This document shows positions 4,469-20,414 of a DNA stretch of 23,445 nucleotides, piece by piece. The position numbers and the translations under genes are program-made. The DNA comes from a virus. The notes beneath the pieces are model-generated. The model saw nothing but the letters and a program-made list of their open reading frames with translations. It was not told the origin of the DNA and did not search any database. The number at the start of each line of letters is the position of its first letter. Position 1 is the first letter of the stretch. The stretch covers positions 1-23,445 of the IMG/VR virus record IMGVR_UViG_3300032356_000013, one strand, 5' to 3'.

Positions 4469-4984
4469 ATGGGTTCCCTGCTCGACATGGAGATGGAGCC
4501 GTTCCTCCTGTTCGGCTTCCCCGAGTACCGCGACGACGCAAGCTACATCATGCTCGCCAACGAAGCCACCGAGGCCTTGTGGGCGGCCCGTGGCTCCATC
4601 AAGGGTCCGGTGGAGTCGGTTCTGGTCGAGGTGCCCTACATCGAACTCCTCGATCTCTGGGTCATCGATGACGCCAACGTCAAGCTCGGAAAGGATATCG
4701 GCGTCATCACCGCCTGGCGGCTGTGGGACTACGGCGTGGACGAGGAAGCCGACCTGGAGCGGAAGTTCACGACCGGAGCCTGCTCCTCGTTCGACTACGT
4801 CCGGCTGGAACTCGCGAAGAACTCCGGCGGTTACGAGTTTCGCGCCGTCGGCTTCGGCGATTACGAGGGCATCAAGGGCGGCGCGTACGAGCGGACCGTT
4901 TGGGTGCCGCTGGAAAAGCTGTCCGATGCGGCGGCAAAGACGGCCAAGCAGGCACGGGAGAAGGAAAACTTCTCGGAGGATTGA
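4469..4984 (+). CDS. Hypothetical protein, 171 residues
   Basis: ATG 4469 follows a GAGGGGAGG ribosome site. The acidic protein looks globular, alternating predicted strands and helices (FLLFGFPEYRDDASYIMLANEATEALW; VESVLVEVPYIELLDLWVIDD), and ends in a charged helix (SDAAAKTAKQAREKENFSED). No cysteine motif, P-loop or membrane segment is seen. Its TGA overlaps the ATG of the PAPS-reductase-like gene (TGATG), so the two are translationally coupled and may act together. I do not recognise the family. Confidence 0.7.
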   Translation: MGSLLDMEMEPFLLFGFPEYRDDASYIMLANEATEALWAARGSIKGPVESVLVEVPYIELLDLWVIDDANVKLGKDIGVITAWRLWDYGVDEEADLERKFTTGACSSFDYVRLELAKNSGGYEFRAVGFGDYEGIKGGAYERTVWVPLEKLSDAAAKTAKQAREKENFSED

Positions 4985-5814
4985 TGCGGATTCTCAACCT
5001 CGGGGCCGGAGTGCAGAGCACTACCGTGTACCTGATGGCCAACTCCGGAGAGATCCCGGCATACGACTGCGCCATCTTCGCCGACACCGGCGAGGAACCG
5101 CAGGCCGTCTACCGCCATCTGGACTGGTTGCTCAGCCTCGGCGGGATCCCGATACTGATCCGCAGCGCCGGGAAACTTGGCGAAGACCTCGTCCAAGGCC
5201 GCAACAGCACGGGCGGCAGGTTCGCCGCAATTCCTGCCTATGTGGATCATGGATCCGGGCGGCGCGAGGGGCGCGGGCGGCGGCAATGCACTCGCGAGTA
5301 CAAGATCGACGTCATCGAGCGCACGATCCGCCGCGAGCTGCTGGGACTCAAACCGCGTCAGCGCATCCCGAAGGGCGTAATGGTAATGCAGGCCTATGGC
5401 ATCAGCATCGACGAGGCGGGCCGCAGCAGGCGGATCCGGGAGCGCATCCGCAGGCACAGCCCGTGGATCATCCCGGAGTTTCCGTTGCTGGACCGGTTGA
5501 TGAGCCGGGCGGACTGCATCCGCTGGCTGCAAAGCCGTGTGCCGCACGAGGTGCCGAAAAGCTCCTGCGTATTCTGCCCGTACAAGTCGAACGAGCAGTG
5601 GCGATGGTTGAAGGACAACGACCCGGAGGGCTGGGCGCGTGCGATCGAGATCGATGAAGCCCTGCGAAACGGAGCCGTAGCCGCAAGGGGCATGAAGGGC
5701 CGCCAGTTCGTCCACCGCTCCTGCGTCCCGCTGGAGGAAGCGGATCTCGGAGCCGGTTCCAATCCGGGGCAGTTGTCGTTCGCCTTGGAATGCGCCGGGA
5801 TGTGCGGCGTTTAG
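4984..5814 (+). CDS. PAPS-reductase-like / N-type ATP pyrophosphatase protein
   Basis: A 276-residue protein. It starts LNLGAGVQSTT (residues 4-14), the nucleotide-binding loop of the adenine nucleotide alpha-hydrolase (PAPS reductase) superfamily, then DTGEEP (34-39). QCTREYKI (101-108) and the cysteine set CVFCPYKSNEQW (C195, C198) with ECAGMCGV at the end (C270, C274) match a large phage family annotated as phosphoadenosine phosphosulfate reductase. The family activates a substrate with ATP or transfers sulphur. DndC of DNA phosphorothioation is a distant relative, but the true phage substrate is not established. Here it overlaps the stop of the upstream gene and precedes a GNAT-like gene and a DNA methyltransferase, which fits a nucleic-acid modification role. 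True sulphate assimilation seems unlikely. Confidence 0.85.
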   Translation: MRILNLGAGVQSTTVYLMANSGEIPAYDCAIFADTGEEPQAVYRHLDWLLSLGGIPILIRSAGKLGEDLVQGRNSTGGRFAAIPAYVDHGSGRREGRGRRQCTREYKIDVIERTIRRELLGLKPRQRIPKGVMVMQAYGISIDEAGRSRRIRERIRRHSPWIIPEFPLLDRLMSRADCIRWLQSRVPHEVPKSSCVFCPYKSNEQWRWLKDNDPEGWARAIEIDEALRNGAVAARGMKGRQFVHRSCVPLEEADLGAGSNPGQLSFALECAGMCGV

Positions 5815-6342: not shown

Positions 6343-7494
6343 ATGTGGCTCTACGTTCCCTTTCCCTGTGCTCCGGAATCGGAGGACTCGATATCGCAGT
6401 CGACATCGCCTTGGGAGGCGTTCGCCCGGTCTGTTACGTCGAACGGGAACTCCCCGTCGCCCGCATTCTTGCGCAGCGCATGGAAGAAGGGTGCCTTCCT
6501 CCCGCTCCGGTTTGGAGCGATCTCGCAACGTTCGATGGATGCCGCCTGCGAGGCCTGGTGGACGTCGTTACGGCAGGGTTCCCGTGCCCGGATTACAGTT
6601 TCGCCGGGAAGCGGGCTGGTCGATTCGGAAAGCATGGCCAGGTCTGGGATCTCGTCCTCAAAGCGGTTCGCGACGTGGAACCCGCAATCATCGTGCTGGA
6701 GAAAGTGGCCGGAATCCGGACTCCTCATCGCAATGGACATGCAGGACTCTGGCATGTTCTCGGAGACCTGGCCGAGAGCGGGTACGATGCGGAATGGCTG
6801 TGCCTTCGAGCGTCCGATGTGGGAGCGCCGCATTACCGCGACCGGTGGTTCTGCCTCGCATGGCGAAAGCATATGGCCGACCCCGATAATGAGAGCGGGT
6901 GGATCAGGCAAGACGCACAGATCTCTTATCCAGGAGGCGCAATCCTGGCCGGAGCCGCCTCTGCGATGCAAGGAGCGCACAAATTGGCGGAACTCTCCGA
7001 TGGTTCCCTGCTGGACGACACCGACGCTGGACGACGTGAACAACATCACCCGGAAGAGCGGAATGCAGAAATCGCTGGCCAGGGATGCGTACCAGTGGCA
7101 GATGCCGGAGTCGGACAACCCGGTGAAGATGTTCCCTACTCCGTCGGCGCGGGACGCGAAGGGCGAGAACCATGTCCGCCATCTGGCGGTGGCCCGGGGC
7201 AGGAAGCACATGGATCAGCTGCCGAACTTCGTAGCTTACTCGGATTCTTCCCCCCAGCGCCTGATGAGTTCGGACGGTGGGCAGAAATCCTCGAGCGGTT
7301 CCCCTGCCTTGCTCCGGCGGTTGAACCCGGCTTTCGTTTCGTGGCTGATGGGACTGCCGTGGTGGTGGACGCAGCCCGGGCTGCTCAGCTTCGCGCCCTC
7401 GGAAATGCAGTCGTACCTCTCCAGGCTGCGGTCGCTGTGCGAGAGCTTCTGCGGCGTTCCGGCATCATCATTCAGGGAGTTCAGCCATGACTGA
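6343..7494 (+). CDS. Overlapping-frame protein with WPTP and LNPxFVxWLMGLP motifs
   Basis: The same DNA as the C5 methyltransferase read in another frame: 383 residues from ATG 6343, two bases before the methyltransferase GTG and served by the same GGAGG. It stops four bases after the methyltransferase. From about residue 98 it carries recognisable family features: SGISSSKRFATWNP (101-114), MFSETWPRAGTMRNGCAFERP (138-158), IWPTPIMRAG (177-186), MFPTPSARDAKG (263-274) and LRRLNPAFVSWLMGLPWWWT (324-343). I recall this pattern in many phage proteins found at methyltransferase loci. A nested start at 6634 (286 residues) is possible. The first 97 residues show no family look. Function is unknown; whether it is translated here needs proof. 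Confidence 0.5.
   Translation: MWLYVPFPCAPESEDSISQSTSPWEAFARSVTSNGNSPSPAFLRSAWKKGAFLPLRFGAISQRSMDAACEAWWTSLRQGSRARITVSPGSGLVDSESMARSGISSSKRFATWNPQSSCWRKWPESGLLIAMDMQDSGMFSETWPRAGTMRNGCAFERPMWERRITATGGSASHGESIWPTPIMRAGGSGKTHRSLIQEAQSWPEPPLRCKERTNWRNSPMVPCWTTPTLDDVNNITRKSGMQKSLARDAYQWQMPESDNPVKMFPTPSARDAKGENHVRHLAVARGRKHMDQLPNFVAYSDSSPQRLMSSDGGQKSSSGSPALLRRLNPAFVSWLMGLPWWWTQPGLLSFAPSEMQSYLSRLRSLCESFCGVPASSFREFSHD
6345..7490 (+). CDS. DNA (cytosine-5-)-methyltransferase
   Basis: A 381-residue protein, GTG start at 6345 with GGAGG at 6334-6338. Family motifs appear in order: motif I SLCSGIGGLDIA (7-18), motif IV GFPCPDYSFAGKR with catalytic Cys81, motif VI LEKVAGI (118-124, where most members have ENV), motif VIII APHYRDRWFCLAW (161-173), and motif X LRALGNAVVPLQAAVAVREL (349-368). 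The stretch between (about 178-320) is the variable target-recognition region and is rich in Asp, Gly and Ala. It methylates carbon 5 of cytosine in a specific short sequence; the target cannot be read from sequence. The Lys in place of Asn in motif VI is unusual. The entire gene is overlapped by another open frame (6343-7494), and its stop overlaps the next ATG. Confidence 0.88.
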   Translation: MALRSLSLCSGIGGLDIAVDIALGGVRPVCYVERELPVARILAQRMEEGCLPPAPVWSDLATFDGCRLRGLVDVVTAGFPCPDYSFAGKRAGRFGKHGQVWDLVLKAVRDVEPAIIVLEKVAGIRTPHRNGHAGLWHVLGDLAESGYDAEWLCLRASDVGAPHYRDRWFCLAWRKHMADPDNESGWIRQDAQISYPGGAILAGAASAMQGAHKLAELSDGSLLDDTDAGRREQHHPEERNAEIAGQGCVPVADAGVGQPGEDVPYSVGAGREGREPCPPSGGGPGQEAHGSAAELRSLLGFFPPAPDEFGRWAEILERFPCLAPAVEPGFRFVADGTAVVVDAARAAQLRALGNAVVPLQAAVAVRELLRRSGIIIQGVQP

Positions 7495-16317: not shown

Positions 16318-16720
16318 CGGCGAAGCGGACGTGGAACTCATTGGACTGTCGGACAAGAAAGACGGGCTGGCGCTGTACGCCATCATCATACGCGGATCCG
16401 GCGAGGATGCCGCAGTGGCCGCGCTGTGCGTTTCGTCCGACGGCGGCGGCGAGCAGCACGCAGTCCGGTTGTTCGCCCGGCACATCGCGGACTTCCTCCG
16501 CAAAGCAGAAGCCGACGAAGGCTTGGAGTACGAAATGCTCTGGTTCATCTGCCGTCACTCGCTTCTGCGGTTGGAAACGCTCCTGGAAGGCACAGAGCCG
16601 GGACCCGGGATGAACTTCATGGAGATCGGACCTGAGGACATGTACTTCCTCGAGGAAGCCACATCGATGATCACCCGGTTCTGCCTGTGGAAGGTAGTCG
16701 GAGTGGACAGGACGCAGTGA
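16283..16720 (+). CDS. Hypothetical protein, 145 residues
   Basis: ATG 16283 lies inside the end of the nuclease gene behind AAGGAGG (16269-16275). An acidic protein with strands (DVELIGLSDKKDGLALYAII) and helices (LFARHIADFLRKAEADEGLE; EEATSMITRFCLWKVV). No motif or membrane segment stands out. Its stop overlaps the GTG of the UDG-exonuclease gene (GTGA). Function unknown; tight coupling to replication genes is the only clue. Confidence 0.65.
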   Translation: MQFITERQPIPDGEADVELIGLSDKKDGLALYAIIIRGSGEDAAVAALCVSSDGGGEQHAVRLFARHIADFLRKAEADEGLEYEMLWFICRHSLLRLETLLEGTEPGPGMNFMEIGPEDMYFLEEATSMITRFCLWKVVGVDRTQ

Positions 16721-18186
16721 AAAGCCAAGAATGCCCCTGCTACAAACCCGGCGTCTGCCCCCGTATGGCCAACGTCGTGCCCTTCCACGGGCCGGAGGAG
16801 GCGCGGCTGGTCGTCGTCGGCGAAGCGCCCGGGGCGACCGAGAACGCCCAGGGCATCCCGTTCTGCGGCGACAGCGGACGCGAGCTGAACCGGCTGTACC
16901 TGCCCGCCGCCGGGCTGGCGCGGGAGGATGTCTTCGTCGCGAATGCGGTGCGATGCCTGCCGGAAACCGGAACGCCGTCCCGCGAGCTGGTGTCGCATTG
17001 CAGCAGCCACTTTCTCGCTCCCTACGTCCGCCAGCGCAAGACCCCCGCTGTGTTCGTCGCCCTGGGCCGCGTCAGCGGCGAGATCATGGAGCCTCTGGTG
17101 CCGGATTCGCGGTTGCTGATCCGCGCTCCGCATCCGGCGGCGGCGATGCGCGACGAGAGCCGCACCGGCAGGATCATGGACGAGATTCTGGCTGCGTTCC
17201 ACCGAGCGGGCAAACTGCTGCGCGGCGAGGAGTGCCGGGAGATCCGCTACGACTGGGCGGTCGCCGACAGCTGGCGGCAGGCAGCATGGGAATTCCGCTT
17301 CGCCGACACGGTCGCGCTGGATACGGAAACCATCGGCGTCGGCGGCCCCGTGTTCTGCTTGTCGCTGGCTGCGCGGATCGAAGCAGACTTGGCCAGCCGG
17401 GTGCTGTTCGCCCGGGATCTCGAGGGCTGCTGGCAGGACTTCACCGACTGGCTCTGCTCGCGCCGCATCGTCATGCATCACGCGCTTTACGACGTCGAGG
17501 CGATCGCCGCCTGCGCGGAATGGGATGCGGCGCTGCGCCTGCTCGCGGCGGCGGAGGATACCATGCTGCTGGCCTACGAGATCCGGGGTCTGCCGCTGGG
17601 TCTGAAGCCGCTCGCGGAAACCCTGCTGGGCATGCCGATGCAGAGCTTCGAGCAGGCGCTGGAGGCCTCGTTCAGCCGGGCGCTCGCCAAGCTGCTGGAA
17701 TCCGCCGCAGAGGAACTCGAGCGCAGCGGGGCGCGTAACGCGGAGCTGGTTCCGCCGCTGCTGGGCTGCGGCGATCCGGTGCCGGATCGACTGCGGCAGA
17801 TGCGCGGCGAGGCGCTCGCCGACTACGTCAAGCGCATCGGGTCGCTGCCGGACGGGGAGCTGCTGCCGCTGGCCGGACGGGTGCTCGAGATGCCCCAGGG
17901 CGACTGCAGCGATGCGCAAGCGCTCGTGGCCGAGGCCAACCGCAGATTCAGCGCTGCGACGGCGGCTGCAGCCGCCCGGAAGTCGCTCCTGCTGCTGGAT
18001 GGCACGATGGATGGCGTGCAGCGTGCGCTGGTCGAGGCAAGGCAGGTCCGGCTCTTGCGGGACCGGGTGCCGGAGCATGCGCACGGGTTGCTGCCGCTGG
18101 CCGATCCGGACGACGTGGCCCGCTACGCATCCCGGGACGCCGTGGCCACGCTGCTGCTTTGGGATGAGCTGAGGAGGATTGCATGA
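16717..18186 (+). CDS. Uracil-DNA glycosylase (family 4-like) fused to DnaQ-like 3'-5' exonuclease
   Basis: A 489-residue protein from GTG 16717. Residues 1-165 match Fe-S uracil-DNA glycosylases: CPCYKPGVC (C6, C8, C14), VVGEAPGATE (33-42), GIPFCGDSGREL (46-57), NAVRCLPETGTPSRELVSHC (76-95, C80 and C95) and PHP (138-140). From 195 a DEDDy exonuclease domain follows: LDTETIG (D202, E204), HHALYD (254-259), DTMLLAYE (281-288), and YASRD (Y470, D474) at the end. The usual Asn of motif II is His255. An insert of about 160 residues lies between motifs II and III. This would pair uracil recognition with proofreading. The DNA polymerase domain is in a separate gene downstream (18676). Its stop overlaps the next ATG. 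Confidence 0.85.
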   Translation: MKSQECPCYKPGVCPRMANVVPFHGPEEARLVVVGEAPGATENAQGIPFCGDSGRELNRLYLPAAGLAREDVFVANAVRCLPETGTPSRELVSHCSSHFLAPYVRQRKTPAVFVALGRVSGEIMEPLVPDSRLLIRAPHPAAAMRDESRTGRIMDEILAAFHRAGKLLRGEECREIRYDWAVADSWRQAAWEFRFADTVALDTETIGVGGPVFCLSLAARIEADLASRVLFARDLEGCWQDFTDWLCSRRIVMHHALYDVEAIAACAEWDAALRLLAAAEDTMLLAYEIRGLPLGLKPLAETLLGMPMQSFEQALEASFSRALAKLLESAAEELERSGARNAELVPPLLGCGDPVPDRLRQMRGEALADYVKRIGSLPDGELLPLAGRVLEMPQGDCSDAQALVAEANRRFSAATAAAAARKSLLLLDGTMDGVQRALVEARQVRLLRDRVPEHAHGLLPLADPDDVARYASRDAVATLLLWDELRRIA

Positions 18187-18674
18187 AACCGAAGATCTTT
18201 CCAGTCGACCAGGAACGGTACGCGCTGCTCGCAGGCCGCTGCGGCGCGGCGGTGTTCCGCATCAGCGGAGGCGAAGCATGGGTCGAGGGCATGCATGGAC
18301 CGCTGGACGAGGACGTCGCCGAGACTCTGGCGCTGGGTGCCTCCGGCGAGCAAACCCTGCCCGGTGCGCTGGGCAAGTTCCGCCTGGCCGATCCGCAGGC
18401 GGAGTGCTTCATCGAGCTGGGCCATCTCCTGTTCGCCCTGGGGCTGGTGCGGTGCCATTCCGACCTGGCCCGCCTGTGCGGCCTCAGCACGCAGCGGATC
18501 TACCAGCTGATGAGCGATGAAACCAGCATGCCGTCGAAAGCGGCCATGGACCGGCTCAGGGAGTCGCTGGCCAACGCGAGGACGCCGTGCCGCAAGACCC
18601 TGGCCGAGCTGGCCGACTCTGTCGCCAGTCGCGCAAGAAGCAAACTGGGAGCGCTGTACGAGAGGGCGAGTTGA
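18183..18674 (+). CDS. HTH protein between the exonuclease and polymerase genes
   Basis: A 163-residue protein; ATG 18183 overlaps the UDG-exonuclease stop. The middle contains a helix-turn-helix-like stretch (SDLARLCGLSTQRIYQLMSD, about 93-112, then MPSKAAMDRLRESL), similar to Cro/C1-type DNA-binding helices. The N-terminal 80 residues look like a separate small domain (FPVDQERYALLAGRCGAAVF), and the C-terminus is a basic helix. It may regulate the operon or bind DNA next to the polymerase. I do not recognise a named family. It lies two bases upstream of the polymerase gene. Confidence 0.65.
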   Translation: MKPKIFPVDQERYALLAGRCGAAVFRISGGEAWVEGMHGPLDEDVAETLALGASGEQTLPGALGKFRLADPQAECFIELGHLLFALGLVRCHSDLARLCGLSTQRIYQLMSDETSMPSKAAMDRLRESLANARTPCRKTLAELADSVASRARSKLGALYERAS

Positions 18675-18675
18675 G

Positions 18676-20073
18676 ATGTTCGATCCGGAGCAGGAGCTTT
18701 GGGGCGGCGTGCGGTTCCGCGACAAGCCGGACCCGCTCAACGCCTACCTGCTGGACCGCAACGCGCTGCCGATGATCGCCGAATACCGCCGCAACGGCGT
18801 GCTGCTGGATGCGGACTGGCTGCGCCGGATGGACGAGGATGTCGGCGCGGAGCTGGAGCGGATCGAGAGGCGGCTCCGGGAGATCGCAGGCGCGGATTTC
18901 AACCCGGCCAGCGGGCCGCAGGTGCGGCGGCTGCTGTTCGACCAGCTGCGGCTGCCCAGGCAGCGGCTGACTGCATCCGGCGAGGATAGCACAGACAGCG
19001 AGGCGCTGAAGGCGCTCGTCGGTCAGCACGAGGCGGTCGGCCTGCTGCTAGAATGGCGCGCCGCGTCCAAGCTGCTGGGAACCTACATCCGCGCCCTGCC
19101 GCAGATGGCCGGGCCGGACGGGCGCGTCCGCACGCGCTACCTGTACACCTCGACCGAGACCGGCAGACTGTCCAGCGAAAAGCCGAACCTGCAGAACATC
19201 CCAGCGAGAACGAAGCTGGGCCTGCGCGTGCGCGGCGCGTTCATCGCAGGCGACGGCATGCTGCTGGTCGGCTGCGACCTCAGCCAGATCGAGGTTGTCT
19301 GGGCCGCGCACCTGAGCGCGGACGAGCGCCTGCTGGACGCCATCGCCCGGGGCGAGGATATCCACACGCTGACCGCGCTGGCCGCCTTCGGAGTCGGCGA
19401 ACCGGAGCGGTCGCAGATCCTGGAACTGAGCCGGAAGTCCAGGGCCGAAGAAGCCGGGGAGAAGGTCGACTGGACCGACGATGAGCGCAGGCGGTGGAAG
19501 GAATTCAAGCAATCCAAGCGCTTGCCTGCCAAGACGGTTACCTTCGGCATTCTCTACGGCCAGACGGCTTCCGGCGCTCAGGCCAACATCCGGGCGCAGG
19601 GCGGCCCGGATCTGGGCGAGGCCGACTGCCAGCGGCTGATCGACCGCTTCTTCGACGCCTACCCGGGCGTCGCCGGATGGATGGAACTGCAGAAGAGGCG
19701 GGCGCTGGAAACCGGCAAGGTATGGGATGCCTTTGGCCGCGTGCGCCGGGTGACCGGTGCGTTGAGCACGCTGAAGCGCATTCGCGCCAAGGCGCTTCGG
19801 GAAGCAGGCAACATGCCCATCCAGTCGAGCGCCCAGGGCATGATCAAACTGTGCATGGCCGAGTCGATGGAGATGATCAACCGCCTGCGGCAGGCCGGGT
19901 TGCGCGTGCTGCCGCTGCTGCAGATCCACGATGAGCTGATCTTCGAAGTCGATGAGCGCGAGGCCGGGGAGTTCGGGCAGCTGCTGCGTGAGATCTTCCG
20001 CAACTGCTGCCGGTTGCGGGTGGCTCATGATGCGAGCTGCTCGCTGGGCAAACGATGGAACGAACTGAAATGA
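18676..20073 (+). CDS. polA: Family A DNA polymerase, polymerase domain only
   Basis: A 465-residue protein from ATG 18676. It has the family A motifs: TSTETGRLSS (158-167), LQNIP (172-176), motif A CDLSQIE with Asp201, motif B RLPAKTVTFGILYG (282-295) with Lys286, Phe290 and Tyr294, MPIQSSAQG (380-388), and motif C IHDELIF with Asp419 and Glu420. Phe290 corresponds to Phe762 of E. coli Pol I. There is no 5' nuclease and no 3'-5' exonuclease domain; the latter is in the upstream UDG fusion. It is the replicative polymerase of the phage by position. The frame extends upstream to 18517, but that part is antiphase to the HTH gene and I exclude it. Confidence 0.92.
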   Translation: MFDPEQELWGGVRFRDKPDPLNAYLLDRNALPMIAEYRRNGVLLDADWLRRMDEDVGAELERIERRLREIAGADFNPASGPQVRRLLFDQLRLPRQRLTASGEDSTDSEALKALVGQHEAVGLLLEWRAASKLLGTYIRALPQMAGPDGRVRTRYLYTSTETGRLSSEKPNLQNIPARTKLGLRVRGAFIAGDGMLLVGCDLSQIEVVWAAHLSADERLLDAIARGEDIHTLTALAAFGVGEPERSQILELSRKSRAEEAGEKVDWTDDERRRWKEFKQSKRLPAKTVTFGILYGQTASGAQANIRAQGGPDLGEADCQRLIDRFFDAYPGVAGWMELQKRRALETGKVWDAFGRVRRVTGALSTLKRIRAKALREAGNMPIQSSAQGMIKLCMAESMEMINRLRQAGLRVLPLLQIHDELIFEVDEREAGEFGQLLREIFRNCCRLRVAHDASCSLGKRWNELK

Positions 20074-20414
20074 GGAAACCGGAAATGACCGAGGACAAAT
20101 ACATCGCAATCGAGGAAAGCGGACTCGGAGTGGAGTTCGTCGAGGATCTGTCGCGGCTGTCCGCGCTGCGGGACCAGATCGCCGGGCTGGAGTCCAAGGC
20201 CAGGGTGCTGAGAGAGGCGATCCAGTCCAGGATGCTGGAGAGGGGCGTCATTGCCGTGCGCGGCGCGGGCTACCGGGTTTCCGTCTCCGTGCGCGAGCGC
20301 ACGGCGATCAACGGCGACAAGCTGGTCGCCTTGGGCGTGTCGCCGGAGATCGTCAAGCGGGCTACTGACACGAGCAGCTACACCGTGCTGGACATCCGGA
20401 AGGAGAGGCAATGA
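20070..20414 (+). CDS. Small coiled-coil protein
   Basis: A 114-residue protein from ATG 20070, which overlaps the polymerase stop (ATGA), as do many neighbours; ATG 20055 and ATG 20085 are alternatives. A helix with coiled-coil character (RLSALRDQIAGLESKARVLR) leads into a beta part (AVRGAGYRVSVSVRERTAIN) and VSPEIVKRATDTSSYTVLDI. It resembles the helix-plus-strand layout of phage Gp157-type proteins but is shorter, so this is only a hint. Its stop overlaps the next ATG. Confidence 0.65.
   Translation: MRKPEMTEDKYIAIEESGLGVEFVEDLSRLSALRDQIAGLESKARVLREAIQSRMLERGVIAVRGAGYRVSVSVRERTAINGDKLVALGVSPEIVKRATDTSSYTVLDIRKERQ

Follow-up and report, generated by a model that had tools for sequence, protein, structure and literature searches.

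The virus record IMGVR_UViG_3300032356_000013 of IMG/VR, whose 23,445 bases are referred to here as the window, encodes in two pieces an enzyme that many related phages make as one chain. One gene specifies a uracil-DNA glycosylase (UDG) fused to a proofreading exonuclease of the Pol I type, and another the family-A DNA polymerase domain; a small gene lies between them, and all three are on the + strand. Together the two pieces cover the whole UDG-exonuclease-polymerase enzyme, in constant order. We consider it rather probable that gene fission gave rise here to a family-A replicase of two genes, and probably of two subunits, whose products would still assemble and be active.

16717..18186, + strand: UDG-exonuclease gene, 489 amino acids, GTG start (Pfam, AlphaFold2 model, L003 orthologue)
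18676..20073, + strand: family-A DNA polymerase gene without exonuclease, 465 amino acids (Pfam DNA_pol_A, L003 orthologue)

Arrangement of the two genes

The original prediction had placed the two genes at these coordinates and the polymerase on a frame of its own, and both points were confirmed: the open reading frames (ORFs) are distinct, and they are distinct also in L003 (relatives found in the scans described below carry L numbers). The best start of the UDG-exonuclease gene is the GTG at 16717, which forms a GTGA overlap with the stop codon of an upstream gene for 145 amino acids. The identical overlap was found in L003, whose orthologue has 54% protein identity. The downstream product matches Pfam DNA_pol_A (PF00476) with an E value of 1.7e-93, spanning positions 3-381 of the profile in two pieces; D-x-SQIE, R-x3-K..FG..YG and QIHDE, which we take to be the family-A motifs A, B and C, can be read in it, and it is 85% identical to the L003 polymerase. 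Ratios of nonsynonymous to synonymous change against L003, obtained from the computed dN and dS, were about 0.30 (UDG domain), 0.36 (exonuclease core) and 0.19 (polymerase), and both halves are thus under constraint in this comparison. An assembly or sequencing error (or a frameshift) that broke one gene in two can be given a negligible probability, as no supporting point was found for it, the two ORFs start separately, the intervening gene of 492 bases is conserved, and L003 repeats the layout, with its own overlaps, at 54% protein identity; the loci L114 and L192 contradict it too.

The structure of the fusion was predicted with AlphaFold2 from 51 aligned rows (mean pLDDT 88.2, pTM 0.76). 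Modelled residues 1-172 matched the UDG of Thermus thermophilus (1ui0, Z 20.1) and residues 175-489 the Klenow exonuclease (1kfs, Z 19.1), so that both folds, the DnaQ fold of the exonuclease included, are predicted with confidence within one gene, as had been proposed. The top Foldseek match of the whole model was the family-A polymerase of phage phiLo (9qhs). The domains and motifs are as follows.

16717..17232, + strand: UDG domain, putatively of the iron-sulphur type (family 4-like); E36, N76, H139; Cys 6, 8, 14, 80, 95 (profiles, alignment, model)
17317..17328, + strand: exonuclease motif I, D202-x-E204 (alignment)
17473..17493, + strand: exonuclease motif II, HHALYD, with H255 replacing Asn and D259 kept (alignment)
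17671..18081, + strand: insert, helical in the model, separating exonuclease motif II from motif III; residues 319-455 approximately (motif spacing, AlphaFold2 helices, low identity)
18124..18138, + strand: exonuclease motif III, Y470-x3-D474 (alignment)

Fused and split relatives

Two sets of loci were collected from IMG/VR, one by a scan with a mixed UDG-exonuclease alignment (the best 80 of 237 relatives), the other with the window polymerase (the best 80 of 539). Both were picked by similarity to the window proteins, and counts in them are not frequencies in nature. The sets overlap (by contig, L113 is L003 and L159 is L026; L025 of the UDG-exonuclease set is likewise the L003 contig), each contains near-copies, and domains were assigned with profiles built from these same sequences. 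A separate scan of genome contigs for kin of the UDG-exonuclease protein gave 14 pattern matches and no relatives. Two phage-collection records, L105 and L108 (CAKLQH020000014.1, AGRM01000004.1), resemble bacterial chromosome contigs with an ordinary polA.

In the UDG-exonuclease set all three domains lay on one ORF in 66 of the 80 loci, and only three were split (L025, L075 and L087). The others comprised one near-copy of the window on a contig that breaks off within the polymerase gene, five loci with UDG alone, four cut by a contig end and one broken in frame. Named phages with the fused form include Serbin, Almagne, StAshley, ctMlz233, ctfzr933, Mel-JY34 and phiLo; gp205 of PaBG has been described as having UDG, exonuclease and polymerase domains (PMC7412058, in the parts available). 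The junction of UDG and exonuclease, presented in the original prediction as the oddity of this locus, is therefore the usual state in a large phage polymerase family, and this locus does not create a novel link between uracil detection and proofreading. The unusual feature is the break before the polymerase: it is the polymerase that was detached. At L101:3917-7522 about 320 residues, perhaps an intein, interrupt the polymerase domain of a fused chain of 1,202 amino acids, in which no intein profile was found; at L100:3995-6461 a frame change within the UDG domain breaks the UDG-exonuclease-polymerase gene, through either error or decay.

The polymerase set contained 17 split loci among its 80, 14 with a whole UDG-exonuclease gene and three in which the UDG part is cut by the contig start. 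The rest were 21 fused UDG-exonuclease-polymerases, 34 exonuclease-polymerases without UDG on that ORF (one of them cut), two long Pol I-like proteins and six with no exonuclease detected. The split of a Pol I-type enzyme is real, and the survey of gene order revealed a branch of uncultured phages with the same break. In 17 of 17 split loci the UDG-exonuclease gene lies upstream on the same strand. Beyond L003 the polymerases of these loci are at most 53% identical to that of the window (L114, L192). The distance from the UDG-exonuclease stop to the open polymerase frame varies from none (L130/L131) to 4,202 bases (L117). The position of the break is similar: where the junction was read, in 13 split loci, the motif III Asp is followed by a further 19-40 residues of the UDG-exonuclease protein (in the window, by 15). 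In seven of these 13 a [GN]-G-[VI]-[RK] motif occurs in the first 95 polymerase residues, as it does in the window, where the N-terminal part carries LWGGVRF.

A different break was seen at L075:3965-6439 and L087:3887-6651, where the UDG-exonuclease ORF stops before motif III and this motif (YNCLD) opens the polymerase ORF. In L087 an ORF of 65 amino acids lies between the two genes; in L075 a TAG stop is followed directly by ATG. Recoding of this stop is unlikely, since L075 and L087 use TAG as a normal stop codon in other places. With motif III on the polymerase gene, the exonuclease of these two loci would need both chains.

The exonuclease and UDG domains

The exonuclease occupies about residues 175-489. 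Its score with Pfam DNA_pol_A_exo1 (E 0.001, 19.4 bits) is under the cut-off of 23.6, with the domain interrupted by the insert; the fold itself was found in the model. All ligands of the DEDDy (Pol I) type are present (D202, E204, D259, Y470, D474). The replacement of the motif II Asn by His, noted in the original prediction, is real (H255). This position was His in three of 51 aligned rows, those of the window, L002 and L003 only, and Ser in one; in an enlarged set of 39 rows there were 34 Asn, two His, one Gly, one Pro and one row with no residue. In these alignments the change is confined to the window and its close kin.

The insert before motif III is also real, though of about 145 residues and not 160. 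Motifs II and III are separated by 215-217 residues in the window and its kin (215 in the window itself), by 188 in L026/L027 and by 136 in phiLo; the remaining relatives that have the two motifs show a spacing of 62-90. In the enlarged set the spacing was 138-264 in fused and split rows alike, the exceptions being L165 (87) and the outgroup (70), which suggests that the insert is probably older than the split. It is helical in the AlphaFold2 model, and within the protein only the linker is less conserved: identity to L003 is 38% in the insert, 26% in the linker and 57% in the exonuclease core. No separate structural match for the insert came out of the fold searches, in which it was modelled only as part of the whole fusion.

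The doubts that the original prediction attached to the His and the insert lose most of their weight, since the ligands are present, the Asn position varies in other relatives and the insert is common to the fused ones. Degeneration of the exonuclease to a scaffold, its activity removed by these two features, would account for a His seen only in the window, L002 and L003 among the 51 rows and for the poor conservation (38%) of the insert. We think it very improbable, since the metal ligands are complete, the core is under constraint, and the motif II Asn is not among the important Klenow residues (Asp355, Asp424, Asp501, Glu357, Leu361, Phe473, Tyr497) named in the available parts of the paper on G20c Pol I (PMC9629493). 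Asp355, Asp424, Asp501, Glu357 and Tyr497 all have counterparts in the window protein. In L165 the motif II Asp is replaced by Glu, and proofreading may be lost there.

The UDG domain (about residues 1-172) scored well above the cut-off with Pfam PF03167 (E 1.5e-21, 77.4 bits against 24.3). The family 4 profile TIGR00758 gave E 3e-22 and 79.1 bits, under its curated cut-off of 125.3, and the UdgX profile TIGR03914 gave 48 bits against a cut-off of 189.95, which does not place the domain in UdgX. The active-site residues E36, N76 and H139 are present. Cysteines 6, 8, 14, 80 and 95 are candidate cluster ligands and make an iron-sulphur site plausible; the spacing of the first group, C-x-C-x5-C, is odd. 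Several fused polymerases (L044, L060, L073, L082, L088, L092 and others) have kept the active-site letters of the UDG without the iron-sulphur cysteines, and in L022 much of the UDG motif itself is lost. The dUTPase profile PF00692 was found in neither of two records, both possibly incomplete.

Origin of the split

A first polymerase tree was built from 68 rows, excluding polymerase domains of fewer than 350 residues (300 for added records), L101 and exact copies. An enlarged tree of 84 rows excluded L171, L183, L184, L143, L189 and L159. Of the exonuclease-polymerase loci with numbers from 162 upwards, roughly three in four were also left out of it, as were most of the 68 rows of the first tree, 27 of which were named for keeping. 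In the first tree the window and L003 were sister to the fused L026 (support 100/96), and in a tree of the UDG-exonuclease part L026/L027 were nearest to the window form (89/96, with a long-branch warning). In the enlarged tree 18 split and five fused rows made up one branch (95/97), nested in a branch of 39 rows of which 18 were fused, 18 split and three other; the window and eight other split rows formed a branch at 98/95. One origin for the window-type and the L075/L087-type splits was rejected (approximately unbiased, AU, test, p 1.2e-6), and by this comparison L075/L087 represent a second, independent split.

The trees bear on the possibility that the two genes were acquired separately and that one chain never existed in this lineage. 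The best phage-record matches of the window polymerase are only about 33-36% identical, some of them being bacterial Pol I filed as phage, and its placement with cellular Pol I was rejected only weakly (AU p 0.02, in a test chosen after seeing the tree). Against this, the polymerase and UDG-exonuclease trees both pick the fused L026 as nearest (in the first sample), the insert between motifs II and III is common to the fused relatives, and the order and break point are constant. Separate acquisition is therefore regarded as quite improbable, and descent from a fused enzyme is preferred.

Do the two products act together?

If the locus arose by fission, a one-chain UDG-exonuclease-polymerase ancestor would have been broken at the linker between exonuclease and polymerase, one gene then making a UDG-proofreading subunit and the other a polymerase subunit. 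We infer that the two products re-associate; the exonuclease, though encoded apart, would then continue to edit the primer end, and close to the fork the UDG domain would go on scanning for uracil or excising it. Docking might take place at the insert and at the short extension that the polymerase carries at its N terminus. Association of the halves is hinted at by their constant linkage, by a modest co-divergence (UDG-exonuclease against polymerase distances, Mantel r 0.34, p 0.028, in 11 split loci with L192, L152, L155 and L113 left out) and by the placement of motif III in L075/L087. In its strongest form the idea would be that of an obligate two-subunit family-A replicase in a phage branch, whose detachable subunit combines uracil scanning and proofreading, a counterpart of Pol III alpha/epsilon and PolD DP1/DP2, with an exonuclease site built from both subunits in L075/L087. 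This we put forward tentatively, as a serious possibility and not as an expectation.

Several observations weigh against a replicase made by fission. The split label requires three changes on the enlarged tree, two of them forced, with five fused rows among the split ones, and there may have been more than one fission. The AU test against the cellular grouping is weak, as said above. The Mantel correlation is modest without near-copies (0.34, compared with 0.88 when they are kept and L192 is left out). In the split relatives L145, L152 and L155 the motif II Asp is replaced by Glu, and exonuclease activity may be lost there. Finally, about 4 kb separate the two genes in two loci, which fits independent proteins too.

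The last point leads to the alternative that the UDG-exonuclease has become a free-standing repair enzyme, removing uracil and trimming 3' ends, while the polymerase copies without proofreading. In keeping with this, the halves are up to about 4 kb and about ten genes apart in some relatives, neighbouring genes encode an ERCC4-type nuclease, an AAA ATPase and a DEAD/Helicase_C_2 helicase, and the UDG-exonuclease diverges faster than the polymerase (54% against 85% identity to L003). It is harder to reconcile with the upstream position of the UDG-exonuclease gene in 17 of 17 split loci and its co-divergence with the polymerase, or with L075/L087, where the exonuclease residues are on both chains and the halves must meet for exonuclease activity. 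We hold a free-standing repair enzyme to be unlikely, and prefer the two-subunit replicase.

Intervening and flanking genes

18183..18674, + strand: small conserved gene between the halves, 163 amino acids, helix-turn-helix (HTH)-like with weak identity, ATGA overlap upstream
20055..20414, + strand: gene following the polymerase gene, with a 19-base overlap between the two that L003 repeats

The 492-base gene at 18183-18674 overlaps the UDG-exonuclease gene by ATGA, and its product is 74% identical in L003. The original prediction had called it an HTH gene; a conserved gene does lie there, but its HTH identity is weak. The Pfam HTH_3 match is below the cut-off (E 0.16), the PHROG 'HTH' match (E 0.0079) covers 20 residues only, and the model is poor (pLDDT 50.6). 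A scan with the protein matched only L002 and the L003 contig. An essential role as a third part of the enzyme was considered and found no support, as other split loci carry different genes or none at this place. HTH-type profiles were found in four of ten intervening proteins searched, above the cut-off in L116 and below it in L115, L145 and L117. The genes in the gap vary (an HTH protein in L116, a DNMK-like kinase in L122, a possible HNH endonuclease in L133), and since from none to about ten differing genes occupy it, the HTH-like gene probably lies outside the enzyme and is probably a passenger. The possible HNH endonuclease (L133:4483-4995; HNH_3, 23.0 bits, just under the cut-off of 24.8) is a conceivable gene-splitting agent.

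Elsewhere in the window, a PAPS reductase-like gene and a DNA methyltransferase gene (4984-5814 and 6345-7490) may bear on DNA modification, and a small reading frame at 2433-2693 has a tandem repeat encoding alternating Ala-Asn and Ala-Asp.

Comparison with known systems

Family-A polymerases are, by the textbook, single chains, and the searches made of an open-licence library turned up no account of a UDG-exonuclease separated from its polymerase. The occurrence of the same enzyme in fused form, split after motif III and split before it provides a natural set for testing the need for tethered proofreading and uracil handling, and for testing how an editing subunit can detach without being lost. 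If the two-subunit reading is true, the polymerase would be modular, with an editing subunit that could be added or omitted in vitro.

The closest known enzymes are PaBG gp205, the polymerase of the Thermus phage phiLo (PDB 9qhs) and those of Serratia phage Serbin and Pseudomonas phage Almagne, which have the same three domains in the same order. They are single polypeptides, whereas the window has a separate polymerase gene and a larger exonuclease insert. In the OM43 phages MEP401 and MEP402 the family-A polymerase is on two ORFs with a small gene between, as in the window; in the available text of that report the break falls within the polymerase domain itself and a UDG goes unmentioned, in contrast to the break between exonuclease and polymerase described here (PMC10580990). 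ExnV1 and PolI_G20c (PDB 7r0t, 7r0k) provide a Pol I-type exonuclease-only protein in which an additional element occurs towards the end of the exonuclease domain, similar to the window. ExnV1 is regarded by its authors as a truncated gene, the accessible sections mention no UDG, and the insert is of about 65 residues with beta strands, whereas that of the window is helical (PMC9629493).

In more distant systems a UDG is found within the polymerase holoenzyme of vaccinia virus (E9/D4/A20), where, according to the part of the source available, D4 is a separate protein, unlike the UDG of the window. The vaccinia polymerase belongs to another family. Bacterial Pol III has a separate proofreading subunit, and in both Pol III alpha/epsilon and archaeal PolD DP1/DP2 (the latter from a partial source) the proofreading exonuclease is on another polypeptide than the polymerase, as in the window. 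These belong to other polymerase families, and the exonuclease polypeptide of the window, which would be the corresponding subunit, also carries a UDG.

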